A stretch of DNA of 64,000 nucleotides from an uncultured Eubacteriales bacterium. Its GTDB lineage: Bacteria; Bacillota; Clostridia; Oscillospirales; Acutalibacteraceae. The translations under genes and the position numbers were made by a program. The first letter of the stretch is position 1. Each line of letters starts with the position of its first letter. Where the stretch lies: positions 50,862-114,861 of the forward strand of contig ONLA01000004.1 in assembly GCA_900318495.1 (NCBI GenBank), in the 5' to 3' direction. Shown here piece by piece: positions 8,380 through 57,661 of the stretch. The notes under the pieces were generated by a model, which was not told the origin of the DNA, did not search any database, and was given only the letters and a program-made list of their open reading frames with translations.

Positions 8380-8631
8380 ATGAGATTAAGAAAACAAGAA
8401 CTTGGGGACAGAAACCTTGTAGGAAACCGTGTGGAGCTTGTCAGAAAGCAAAAGGGTATGAAGCAAAAAGAGCTTTTGGCGCAGCTTCAGGTTAACGGAG
8501 TTGATATGAACGCATCCGGACTGTCCAAGCTTGAAGGACAAATCAGATTTGTGACCGACGTTGAACTGGTTGCGCTGGCGGATATCCTTGAAGTATCTGT
8601 TGATTATCTTCTCGGAAGAGAAAAAAAGTAA
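8380..8631 (+). CDS. Small XRE-family HTH regulator
   Basis: 83 residues, essentially a single helix-turn-helix domain. 'VGNRVELVRKQKGMKQKELLAQLQV' (in pieces), 'NASGLSKLEGQIRFVTDVELVALADILEVSVDYLLG' cover the XRE helices and the characteristic C-terminal 'VSVDYLLGREK'. The N-terminal 'MRLRKQELGDRNLVGNR' extension is unusual and basic. GGAGAGAG precedes ATG 8380. It stands alone between an AT-rich leader and a terminator, next to the repeat and noncoding-RNA region. The target is unknown; self-regulation through the long leader is possible. Confidence 0.85.
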   Translation: MRLRKQELGDRNLVGNRVELVRKQKGMKQKELLAQLQVNGVDMNASGLSKLEGQIRFVTDVELVALADILEVSVDYLLGREKK

Positions 8632-8699: not shown

Positions 8700-8840
8700 A
8701 TACTAATTCCTGATAGAAAGTAGACTTATATTTTGCGAGGATATTTTTCGCAAGACAAGGCGAAGGACGCGGCAAGGCTGGCGCCTTGCAAGCGGAAAAT
8801 AGACCGCAAAGATTGGCTACTTTTTATTAGGTATTAGTAT
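8700..8840 (+). mobile_element. MITE-like element, copy 1 (141 bp)
   Basis: Ends are inverted repeats: ATACTAATTCCTGATAGAAA on the left and the complement of ATACTAATACCTAATAAAAA on the right (about 21 of 24 bases match). The interior forms hairpins (TTGCGA...TCGCAA; GCAAGGC-TGGC-GCCTTGC). No coding capacity. Compared with copy 3 (57512-57661) it lacks about nine interior bases. It sits between two terminators downstream of the XRE gene. Confidence 0.8.
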
Positions 8841-8893: not shown

Positions 8894-8981
8894 CAGCTCA
8901 CATATATTATTATATCATATTTTAAAGTGATATTCAAGGTGTTTTTTAAAAATAAAATTTAAATTATTTTTATAAAAAGTA

Positions 8982-9010
8982 TTGACAATGTGGATAATCG
9001 GATGTATAAT
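8982..9010 (+). promoter_or_regulatory. Perfect consensus sigma-A promoter
   Basis: TTGACA (8982-8987), 17 bases, TATAAT (9005-9010). It is one of only a few perfect consensus promoters in the window and is followed by no recognisable protein gene. Confidence 0.85.
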
Positions 9011-9047
9011 ATAGACAAAGAAAAGGAAAGACAAGGAGGTCTTTAAT

Positions 9048-9146
9048 ATGAAAGTTAATATTCTATATAAGCACCAGATTAAAGACTATCTGCGGAGCTT
9101 ACCACCCAATGTATCAGGCCCGGTGCTTGGGGCTGAAGTATCATAA
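9048..9146 (+). CDS. Possible 32-residue peptide at the 5' end of the RNA
   Basis: ATG 9048 to TAA 9146, preceded by a near-perfect AAGGAGGT seven bases upstream. The peptide, beginning MKVNILYKHQIKDYLRSLPP, is not one I recognise; it lacks a signal peptide or membrane segment. The bases just before the ATG (9039-9047) pair perfectly with 9078-9086 within the frame, and other coding bases join the 9069-9075/9122-9128 pairing, so the sequence looks constrained as RNA. It may be a leader peptide, or the ribosome site may be chance within a structured RNA. Confidence 0.3.
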   Translation: MKVNILYKHQIKDYLRSLPPNVSGPVLGAEVS

Positions 9147-9604
9147 GCTTGTTTTGTTGAAGCAACATACTTTTTCAGTGTTATTAAACATATTTCTATT
9201 TTCTTATGATTAGCGTTCATTCGTAAACATCTTCCTATAAGCTAAAAAATCTACTTTCATTGTTTACATAAATGAGGATGTTTACCTGAACAGGCAAGTG
9301 AGCTAATGTTTTAAGTGATCGGGGTTTCGGCTTTATCACAATTTAATATTAAGAAGTCTATAAAACCTTTGACTAAAATGGCGGGCAGTCCAATGAGAAG
9401 TTAAGTTTTTCTATTAAATCGACACATTATCCGTTTATATAGTTTCTAATTATTTGAAGGGAGTTTTTCCCATGTATGGTTTAATCTGATTTACGGTATC
9501 TTAACGATCGGAGAAGGTCCAATGTAATACTCAGTTTTTTCTTTAAACCAATCTATTATCGGAGTTGAGTCCAAAGTACAGTTAAGATTTTTATAGGACA
9601 TTCA

Positions 9605-9633
9605 GAGGCGGCAGCGTTTGCCGCCTCTTTTTT
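9605..9633 (+). terminator. Intrinsic terminator of the candidate RNA
   Basis: Nine perfect G/C-rich pairs (GAGGCGGCA, 9605-9613, with TGCCGCCTC, 9619-9627), five-base loop, then six T. Confidence 0.9.
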
Positions 9634-9689
9634 CGTTTGCTTATTCTTTGAGCTGTAAGCCGAGGTTCTACGCTTAAATTTCACAATTG

Positions 9690-9745
9690 ATACTAATTCC
9701 TGATAGAAAGTAGACTTATATTTTGCGAGGATATTTTCCGCAATA
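9690..9745 (+). mobile_element. MITE-like element fragment, left end (copy 4)
   Basis: The first 53 or so bases match the left end of copies 1-3 (ATACTAATTCCTGATAGAAA and the GCGAGGATATTTT hairpin), then diverge; no right-hand repeat is found. It lies 57 bases after the terminator of the candidate RNA. The remaining bases up to 9850 show nothing coding. Confidence 0.75.
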
Positions 9746-9857
9746 CTGCGTTGTCGGTATGAGTCTGTGATTAATAACAAAGCGTCGGCGGGGGATACCT
9801 CGCGCCTTGTGAAAGTCACATTTATGTTCTCAGAGAATAGTGAAAATTACATAAAAT

Positions 9858-50824: not shown

Positions 50825-51420
50825 TGCTGAAAATAAAAGAAGCCGTTATTGTTGAAGGCAGGTACGATAAAATTAAGCTGAGCGGCATAATCGACGCGCC
50901 TATAATAGAAACTAACGGCTTCCGTATTTTTAAGGACAGGGAAAAACAAAGTCTTATCCGCCAAATCGCCAAAACACGCGGAATACTTGTATTTACCGAC
51001 AGCGACGGAGCCGGATTTGTGATTCGCAACTTCCTTAAAGGCGCTGTTTCCGAAGGTCAAATAAAGCATTGCTACATTCCTCAAATTGAAGGCAAGGAAA
51101 AACGCAAGCCTCAAAAAAGCAAGGAGGGCTTGCTCGGCGTTGAAGGCGTTACTGATGAAGTTATTATCAACGCGATAAAAAAAAGCGGTGCAGTAATCAT
51201 AGGGAAGGATGCTCCGGTTCAGTCCAAGATAACCAAGGCTGACTTATACTCACTCGGTCTCACAGGTACCGAAAACTCCTCAAAGCTGAGGCTCGCGCTG
51301 CTGAAAAAGCTTGGTATGCCGTCTTATTTGAGCACAAACGCTTTGCTGACTGCTTTAAACTGTTTATATTCCTTTGAAGAATTAAAATCGCTTATCGGAG
51401 AATTTTATACTAATTCCTGA
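50824..51420 (+). CDS. rnmV: Ribonuclease M5
   Basis: 198 residues. A Toprim nuclease that trims 5S rRNA precursors. 'EAVIVEGRYDKIKLSGI' (catalytic Glu), 'GILVFTDSDGAGFVIRN' (DxD) and 'EGLLGVEGVTDEVIINAI' are the Toprim and M5 signatures. ATG 50824 after GGAGGG is preferred over the TTG one codon earlier. The last four residues (YTNS) and the TGA are provided by a MITE-like element that starts at 51407, so the natural C-terminus has been replaced or extended. Confidence 0.9.
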   Translation: MLKIKEAVIVEGRYDKIKLSGIIDAPIIETNGFRIFKDREKQSLIRQIAKTRGILVFTDSDGAGFVIRNFLKGAVSEGQIKHCYIPQIEGKEKRKPQKSKEGLLGVEGVTDEVIINAIKKSGAVIIGKDAPVQSKITKADLYSLGLTGTENSSKLRLALLKKLGMPSYLSTNALLTALNCLYSFEELKSLIGEFYTNS

Positions 51421-51515
51421 TAGAAAGTAGACTTATATTTTGCGAGGATATTTTTCGCAAGACAAGGCGAAGGACGCGGCAAGGCTGGCGCCTTGCAAGG
51501 ATTAGGTATTAGTAT
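51407..51515 (+). mobile_element. MITE-like element, copy 2 (109 bp, internal deletion)
   Basis: Same left end as copies 1 and 3, but the interior between the GCAAGGC hairpin and the right repeat is missing (junction near 51499-51501), which leaves only 15 bases of the right repeat (ATTAGGTATTAGTAT). It overlaps the last codons of rnmV and lies just before a terminator. Confidence 0.8.
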
Positions 51516-56860: not shown

Positions 56861-57535
56861 ATGAAAAAGCTTTTATCATTAATTACAGCGGCGGTCATAA
56901 CATTGACCGCAATAACTTCAACAGCGTATGCCGCAGAGGAACAGCCTAAATACTTTTCAAGCTTTTGCCGTCAGTACAGCTGGAACAGCGATTATTCCGA
57001 TATTCTTACATACCGGGAATTGTATACTCATTACAATACTCAAAAGGAAGAGGACTGGGTGCTTGTTTACGCGCTGACCAATATGGTTTGTCCTATGGAA
57101 ACCTACGCCGTTTTGGGCGACCGCGTGTTTTATCAGAACAATGTTTATGTTCCGTTTTCGTTCGGTTATGCTGTTTACGACGTCCGCCAAGACAAATTTT
57201 ATGATTTTGTAAACTGCGTAACCGGAGAAACACTTGCGTCAAAAGGGCGGTTCAAGGATATTGAAAAGGTAACCGGCGCGCTTAATCTCGGCGTGGAAAT
57301 AGGGGATATGAACCGTGACGGAAAGTTGACGGTCAAGGACGCAACACAGATTCAAAGATGCCTCGCCGGAACAGTCGATTTCCCTATTGATGATGATTTA
57401 ACATCATATATCCCAAAAACCGAAGCTCTTTCATATGTTTCTGATATAACTCGGGACGGTCAGCGAAACATTTCGGACGCTACCGCGGTACAGCGAAAGA
57501 TTGCGGGGATTATACTAATTCCTGATAGAAAGTAG
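56861..57535 (+). CDS. Secreted dockerin-containing protein with element-derived tail
   Basis: 224 residues. Signal peptide (1-25, ending 'AYA'), a domain of unknown function with many Tyr and Asn (26-140), then a dockerin-like pair: 'DMNRDGKLTVKDATQIQRCLAG' in pieces and 'DITRDGQRNISDATAVQRKIAG'. Dockerins bind cohesins on scaffoldins, so cell-surface or cellulosome-type assembly is likely. The last eight residues (I-L-I-P-D-R-K and stop, 57512-57535) are encoded by the left end of MITE copy 3. GGAGG precedes the ATG but is locked in a hairpin. Confidence 0.85.
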   Translation: MKKLLSLITAAVITLTAITSTAYAAEEQPKYFSSFCRQYSWNSDYSDILTYRELYTHYNTQKEEDWVLVYALTNMVCPMETYAVLGDRVFYQNNVYVPFSFGYAVYDVRQDKFYDFVNCVTGETLASKGRFKDIEKVTGALNLGVEIGDMNRDGKLTVKDATQIQRCLAGTVDFPIDDDLTSYIPKTEALSYVSDITRDGQRNISDATAVQRKIAGIILIPDRK

Positions 57536-57661
57536 ACTTATATTTTGCGAGGATATTTTTCGCAAGACAAGGCGAAGGACGCGGCAAGGCTGGCGCCTTG
57601 CAAGGACGTATTGCGGAAAATAGACCGCAAAGATTGGCTACTTTTTATTAGGTATTAGTAT
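57512..57661 (+). mobile_element. MITE-like element, copy 3 (150 bp, most complete)
   Basis: Left repeat 57512-57535, right repeat about 57638-57661, imperfect inverted repeats. Three interior hairpins: 57545-57550 with 57560-57565; 57584-57590 with 57595-57601; 57611-57616 with 57625-57630. No coding capacity and no transposase nearby. Inserted into the end of the dockerin gene. Confidence 0.85.

Follow-up and report, generated by a model that had tools for sequence, protein, structure and literature searches.

Titrating RNAs such as CsrB and RsmZ are standalone transcripts that carry many short motifs resembling ribosome-binding sites (RBSs), in variable copy number, and TnaC and ErmCL are arrest or leader peptides. 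Minigenes with strong Shine-Dalgarno (SD) sequences have been reported to deplete tRNAs or to protect transcripts through SD occupancy (PMC8708949, in excerpt), and 5′ roadblocks, such as a stalled ribosome, stabilize long downstream RNA in B. subtilis (PMC3997798, in excerpt).

Like CsrB and RsmZ, the RNA described here, which is encoded within a 64-kb stretch of DNA (the window), stands alone and contains multiple copies of a short RBS-like motif in varying number; however, its module carries an AUG at the spacing of an RBS, a conserved open reading frame (ORF) lies at its 5′ end, and no CsrA was found in the 24 genus genomes searched. As judged from its sequence, this short ORF is similar to those of TnaC and ErmCL in its nearly fixed length, the conserved C-terminal residues near its stop and its terminal pausing motif, but no regulated gene is part of the same transcript, and a terminator-closed non-coding RNA follows the ORF instead. 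The modules resemble two-codon minigenes and SD-occupancy elements in that an SD and AUG are followed a few codons on by a stop, although such elements act in cis in mRNA leaders (PMC8708949, in excerpt), whereas the copies described here are in a separate RNA. As with 5′ roadblocks and STAB-SD elements, protection of a long untranslated RNA could come from a strong SD or from a ribosome paused close to its 5′ end, although the described elements belong to mRNAs (PMC3997798, in excerpt). Finally, OLE, GOLLD and ROOL are likewise large standalone bacterial RNAs with hosts that are in part from gut or rumen (PMC12286853, in excerpt), but our RNA has no Rfam match, folds with ordinary energy, is AU-rich and contains short repeated modules. 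Among the papers listed on R. bromii RNAs, SD or sponge RNAs and dual-function RNAs, titles and the beginnings of abstracts contained no description of it. To our knowledge, no other RNA combines, within a terminator-closed transcript, an ORF that is under coding constraint and predicted to pause ribosomes with a series of RBS look-alikes. The novelty of the RNA rests on this anatomy, and would be lesser if its mechanism were that of a plain protein sponge.

Sequence comparison establishes the anatomy of the gene: a promoter, a terminator, a constrained ORF and RBS-like modules in variable number (Table 1). The preliminary description of this DNA, which had claimed an RNA of ~617 nt bounded by a perfect promoter and a strong terminator, proved accurate for both elements and for the independence of the gene, homologues of which have several unrelated neighborhoods. 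That the gene is transcribed is likely from its promoter and terminator. TTGACA is invariant across a 51-sequence alignment (A2) and present in all 80 loci that have sufficient upstream sequence; at one locus (L108) it directly adjoins the start codon and probably does not serve as the promoter. Of the 81 loci, 72 have a called terminator, and six of the nine without one have <820 nt of contig remaining. Where called, the terminator lies 344 to ~1300 nt from the −10 box (median 628), leaving aside a value of 1424 for L070 that may skip the true terminator. The preliminary description was also correct that the transcript contains no long reading frame, but it missed the conserved 32-amino-acid ORF at 9048–9146, with its perfect SD, as well as the RBS-like module, both of which are among the most conserved parts of the RNA. 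Within the transcript, the ORF list of the window has only a 44-amino-acid frame and, spanning the transcript 3′ end, an 87-amino-acid minus-strand frame; for the 87-amino-acid frame there is neither a relative at any of the other loci nor a Pfam match.

Table 1. Coordinates of the RNA gene, its predicted features and the flanking repeat, numbered from the first nucleotide of the window
Feature	Position	Strand	Basis
Interspersed repeat CTAATTCCTGATAGAAAGTAGAC	8703-8742, 9693-9732, 51410-51449, 57515-57554		4 places in window
Sigma-70 promoter TTGACA-17-TATAAT, then ATAGACAA	8982..9010	+	12/12 consensus positions matched
Predicted transcript, ~617 nt	9017..9633	+	Promoter and terminator; start inferred near 9017
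SD of short ORF, AAGGAGG	9033..9039	+	Sequence; GGRGG here in 79/80 loci
Short ORF, 32 codons and stop, MKVNILYKHQIKDYLRSLPPNVSGPVLGAEVS	9048..9146	+	Codon-level conservation
Predicted start-codon pairing AUGAAAGU/ACUUUCAU	9048..9055 with 9253..9260	+	94.0% paired (A3); nearly invariant, no both-side change
GGAG within Arg-Ser codons	9094..9097	+	Nucleotide-level conservation (CGG/AGG and AGY)
Pro-Pro-Asn codons, predicted ribosome pause	9102..9110	+	Nearly fixed distance from Met (20 or 21 codons); E. coli PPN work
Predicted long-range helix CCCGGU/AUCGGG	9119..9124 with 9318..9323	+	88.7% paired; both-side changes in 2/6 pairs (16 cells)
Predicted covarying helix	9158..9162 with 9215..9219	+	85.4% paired; both-side changes in 5/5 pairs
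Module copy 1, GGCGGGCAGUCCAAUGAGAAGUUAA	9380..9404	+	Sequence; weakest SD-like part
Module copy 2, GGAGUUUUUCCCAUGUAUGGUUUAA	9460..9484	+	Sequence
Module copy 3, GGAGAAGGUCCAAUGUAAUACUCAG	9510..9534	+	Sequence; AUG-UAA start-stop
Module copy 4, GGAGUUGAGUCCAAAGUACAGUUAAG	9561..9586	+	Sequence; AAG replaces AUG, which many relatives also show in their last copy
Intrinsic terminator	9604..9633	+	Stem 9604-9628, 11 bp including G-T, then T tract

The homologues come from one genus. Judged by name, we take it for the Ruminococcus bromii group, which is considered to have a keystone role in starch degradation in humans and ruminants. Collecting homologues by blastn, as the preliminary description had proposed, gave relatives in 7 of 35 other genomes of the genus (8 of 59 genomes in all, counting that of the window). 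Eight loci (alignment A1) served to build a sequence model of the 5′ domain (R1), which matched 83 of 161 genus genomes at E ≤0.001, and a second model built from the 51 loci of A2 (R2) matched 80 of the 161 at E ≤1e-7; our 81-locus set consists of 80 of the 94 R1 matches together with the window locus. Since 78 of the 161 genus genomes, some of them incomplete, had no R1 match, the RNA is not essential across the genus. We also scanned genomes of 84,980 species with a degenerate pattern for the ORF end, which itself demands GGAG, and obtained 81 stretches. Among the 80 listed, 76 have TTGACA and an SD upstream, two more have the SD and too little DNA to show a promoter, and two (Lachnospiraceae and Prevotella) look like chance matches within genes. 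The carriers include Ruminococcus bromii YE282, ATCC 27255 and 5AMG and Ruminococcus sp. FMBCY1, the remainder being mainly metagenome-assembled genomes of uncultured Ruminococcus, Clostridia and Clostridiales, several of them ruminant-derived. As named R. bromii strains carry the RNA, it is directly testable.

The best candidates outside the genus did not hold up. R2 matched 282 of 394 genomes of the order at E ≤0.01; three of these belong to the genus (E <1e-22), and the best match outside it had an E of 2.4e-8. The 17 best non-genus loci, with one module match in total, resemble promoters and SDs of ordinary genes, or tRNA. We therefore take the other non-genus matches to be generic combinations of promoter and SD, a reading under which a diverged form could be missed. 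Collections of phages and plasmids gave zero blastn matches to the RNA, and 19 further matches in its own genome, considered as paralogues, were rejected (best E only 0.089). One genome (G102) holds two diverged copies of the gene (L103 and L107), each with promoter, ORF and terminator.

Codon-level comparison indicates that the short 5′ ORF is under coding constraint. From the Met to the Asn of Pro-Pro-Asn (PPN), both counted, there are 20 codons in 25 loci and 21 in 54 (79 of 81 loci), in a search that tried 18–25 codons and dropped one locus cut by a contig end (L106) and one without an SD (L108). The in-frame pN/pS is 0.27 for the 20-codon form (24 distinct sequences) and 0.38 for the 21-codon form (50 distinct sequences), variation being mostly at third codon positions; the other frames give values of 1.28–1.67 and have stops in from four to all of the sequences. 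The ORF ends in RS(L/F)PPN, beyond which its tail is variable in sequence and in length (0–14 codons): the frame stops immediately after the Asn in 16 loci, after one codon in 27 (together 43 of 79) and after 2–14 codons in the others. Codon choice at this end was tallied in 80 of 81 loci with a pattern requiring GGAG, CC, CC and AA, the sole failure being the contig-cut L106. The Asn codon is AAT in 40 loci and AAC in 40, the Arg codon before PPN is CGG in 77 and AGG in three, and Ser is AGC or AGT in 79 of the 80. The first Pro codon is CCA, CCG or CCC, never CCT, which may be avoided because CCT followed by CC gives CCTCC, the complement of the SD.

A nearly fixed length from Met to the predicted pause, a conserved end and a free tail are traits of leader or arrest peptides, among them TnaC and ErmCL. 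In E. coli work PPN is a pausing motif, the pause being relieved by EF-P and EfpL (PMC11611912, in excerpt); carried over to the different sequence context of this ORF, that result suggests that ribosomes would pause here. EF-P is encoded in all 13 genomes searched, nine of them from the genus. In 11 of 15 compact homologues (L122, for example), the SD sequence GAGGU is complementary to ACCUC within Asp-Leu codons of the ORF, and it is possible that this complementarity locks the ORF's own translation.

The second conserved part is a module with the consensus GGAGAUUAGUCCAAUG...GUUAA, mostly in 3–4 copies per RNA. Across 254 distinct copies, chosen by [AT]CC.A[AT]G preceded by a GG-rich stretch, the consensus reads GG-R-G-(A/G)-U-N-A-G-U-CC-A-A-U-G, then a less conserved stretch ending in U-(U/A)-A. 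Copies are often 50–57 nt apart, with irregular spacing in the longest RNAs. Among 67 distinct RNAs of ≤1000 nt the number of copies ranges from one to seven and is three or four in 55 (three copies in 35 RNAs, four in 20, five in five, two in three, seven in two, one in one and six in one). In one relative (L056, 3045–3318), a 101-nt unit that carries one module is tandemly duplicated to 2.7 copies, with the contig ending inside the duplication; this is a recent change in copy number.

Several properties of the module are those of a translation start. Among 232 distinct sites selected solely by CC[ACG]A[AT]G, a 4-nt complement of the anti-SD was present 5–18 nt upstream of 205; of 365 control windows taken within these RNAs, 61 had one, and the mean anti-SD duplex energy was −6.7 as against −1.1 for the control windows. 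The SD-like tetramer is most often 9 nt from the module AUG (92 of 162), and the ORF's own RBS has this spacing in 68 of 79 loci; unlike the ORF, the module AUG opens no long frame. The SD-like part shifts register (GGAG, GAGG, GGUG, AAAGGA) while keeping its complementarity. An in-frame stop occurs ≤3 codons after the AUG in 159 of 212 copies, the stop codon and its position varying, and 9 of the 212 have no stop within eight codons. Frames that end ≤4 codons from the AUG position make up 82% for frame 0, 65% for frame +1 and 13% for frame +2. A strict reading of the modules as mini-ORFs is weakened by the copies without an early stop and by those with AAG instead of AUG (42 of 231).

Other properties are less readily ascribed to initiation. 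In the 25-sequence alignment, three of the copies have an invariant CC ahead of the AUG and the fourth a nearly invariant one, and the AG before the CC is conserved. Predictions have the GG and CC mostly in pairs (unpaired probability 0.21–0.29, versus 0.40 overall), so that the SD of the module may be masked. We limit this hairpin to GG/CC, since a third pair (GGA..UCC or GGU..ACC), considered by eye, is A..A or U..U in many copies.

What might such an RNA do? The reading that we place first, tentatively and at clearly less than an even chance, is that it is a translation-engaged, multivalent decoy, whose ORF pauses the ribosome at PPN and whose modules bind ribosomes. A ribosome would translate the 5′ ORF and pause at PPN, perhaps assisted by the GGAG within the Arg-Ser codons, which resembles an SD, and the paused ribosome could shield the 5′ end and thereby set the folding and lifetime of the RNA. 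The downstream modules would act as RBS mimics, capturing 30S subunits, or ribosomes in the course of initiation, at start sites with immediate stops, and the level of the decoy might be tuned by the speed with which ribosomes clear PPN, which could depend on EF-P or on the supply of proline or asparagine. Translation, pausing, protection by the paused ribosome and capture by the modules are thus steps that we infer. Against the decoy we count the invariant or nearly invariant CC and the GG/CC pairing, because initiation needs neither, and also the AAG copies, an early stop that is not absolute and a frame +1 that is itself rich in stops. If the modules do bind ribosomes, the RNA would represent RNA-based global control of translation.

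The main rival to this decoy, which we consider somewhat unlikely, follows the logic of CsrB and RsmZ: the module would bind an RNA-binding protein that blocks RBSs, and the ORF would just stabilize or regulate the sponge. Multiple, often regularly spaced copies in variable number are what a protein sponge would be expected to have; the near-invariant CC and the conserved AG before it exceed what initiation needs, the GG/CC is predicted to pair, and AAG copies are easier to reconcile with a protein motif than with translation initiation. However, a protein motif would not need to retain SD complementarity while its SD-like part shifts register. In addition, as a target motif the module is without clear enrichment elsewhere in its own genome (15 matches, two of them in the RNA, versus 8 for a reversed control). 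CsrA (PF02599) was absent from all 24 genus genomes searched, and on that ground we reject a CsrA sponge; it was found in 3 of 15 genomes of other genera, and controls matched in 3 of 14. Binding of some protein by the modules would point to a CsrA-like regulator in bacteria without a detected CsrA.

It is also possible, though we consider it unlikely, that the RNA is a natural ribosome sponge in which the 5′ pausing peptide senses Pro-Pro elongation, as a gauge of EF-P or amino-acid status, and the tandem start-stop RBSs hold initiating ribosomes or deplete tRNAs. If so, a gut bacterial lineage could throttle translation with an RNA.

Also unlikely, in our judgment, is a small mRNA whose product is a basic peptide of 20–35 amino acids, acting as a regulator or inhibitor, with the rest of the transcript serving as a long 3′ UTR that is shielded by occasional ribosome binding. 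The strong coding constraint and the perfect SD fit such an mRNA, and a strong SD that precedes a mini-ORF and is occupied by a ribosome has been reported to guard a transcript from nuclease (PMC8708949, in excerpt). However, the variable ORF tail after PPN recalls a pausing peptide more than it does a folded product, and three members of the ORF-peptide family have no Pfam match. A small mRNA would also leave the conservation of the 3′ modules and the covarying helices unexplained.

As homologues occupy several unrelated gene contexts, the RNA is an independent gene with its own promoter and terminator. A small gene of the XRE type lies upstream in 30 of the 75 loci with ≥700 nt of flank; in the window it encodes an 83-amino-acid helix-turn-helix (HTH) protein (8380–8631) whose Pfam HTH matches are weak and below cut-off. 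Phosphoglucomutase (pgm) is downstream and convergent in 24 loci, 17 of which also have the XRE gene, trkA is downstream on the same strand in 18, and spo0A is nearby in six, the names of the latter two being confirmed by Pfam; many further neighbors are single cases. Fifteen of 16 chosen non-carriers have a full-length pgm, and neither a module nor an XRE gene was found in the 1500 nt adjoining it (the L255 stretch was shorter); the sixteenth (G035) gave just a weak pgm paralogue. The ORF-end pattern was absent from a single-contig non-carrier (G059). A cis-acting leader or attenuator, in which pausing on a leader peptide controls the downstream gene, would fit the leader-peptide-like ORF and the loci with trkA, but is very unlikely given that the downstream gene is convergent in the window, as it is across the pgm set, that a terminator closes the RNA, and that neighbors vary between species sets.

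Least likely is the proposal of the preliminary description that the RNA is a large ornate structured RNA of the OLE, GOLLD or ROOL kind, which the standalone ~600-nt transcript, its few covarying helices and the covariation of the proposed helices as a set would suit but which is scarcely plausible in view of ordinary folding energy, poor retention of two of those helices, the roughly fourfold range in length and the lack of an Rfam match. Far from showing more pairing than expected, as had been claimed, the 9017–9633 transcript has a minimum free energy of −137.3 versus −132.5 ± 5.4 for 20 shuffles (z −0.89), and four of the 20 fold at least as well. RNAalifold on 15 compact homologues returned the terminator and weak pairings. 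At gathering scores, Rfam 15 has no match in the whole window. A search of 8900–9760 at E up to 5 gave only six sub-threshold matches, none to the models for ROOL, OLE, GOLLD or HEARO that the preliminary description had suggested. At relaxed E-values all hits to the RNA stayed below threshold, isrD, for example, reaching 22.6 bits against a cut-off of 37. On 20 homologous loci, Rfam identified two tRNAs and two S-box riboswitches, leaving the RNA itself unmatched and again with no OLE, GOLLD, ROOL or HEARO. Of the two options left by the preliminary description, a known family or a new one, the second is correct: the RNA belongs to a family absent from Rfam 15.

The four helices originally listed with coordinates, out of at least seven counted, are all perfect Watson-Crick pairings in the window, and their covariation among homologues exceeds shuffles as a set and is uneven individually. 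In an alignment of 25 homologues, all from the 81-locus set (A3), they are paired in 83.6%, 34.9%, 66.2% and 52.3% of cells. Covariation of the set is 0.195, compared with 0.151 ± 0.010 in shuffles (0 of 500 as high) and 0.116 or less when the helices are slid, the signal coming mainly from the first and third. The first spans the SD and start region and codons I-K-D of the short ORF.

Our own helix set (Table 1) has a covariation of 0.271, versus 0.171 ± 0.012 for 500 shuffles, none of which is as high, and at most 0.220 after sliding by 1–3 columns, an excess that is partly expected because the helices were found on overlapping sequences. For pair count and pair type, the set is no better than shuffles, 73 and 420 of the 500, respectively, being as high. 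The start-codon pairing, since it involves the start codon of the ORF, would oppose ORF translation, which also counts against the decoy. In the window itself, the fifth pair of the 9158–9162/9215–9219 helix, G9162-G9215, is non-standard. A further helix of this set, 9147–9154/9288–9295, is left unclaimed: as a whole it is paired in 58.3% of A3, with one pair at 41.2%, and its inner five pairs are 91% paired on a 26-sequence alignment. On 26 sequences, a G-test of individual pairs against a tree-based null, which has almost no power, gave one canonical pair at E 0.87. The RNA thus probably has a modest structured core, not an ornate fold.

Two further elements were observed near the gene. S-box (SAM) riboswitches flank two homologous loci (L101, 14–110, minus strand; L102, 3043–3138, plus strand). 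In the window, the gene is flanked on both sides by an interspersed repeat (Table 1) of up to ~136 nt, which has 42 matches in its own genome and looks like a miniature mobile or REP-like element.
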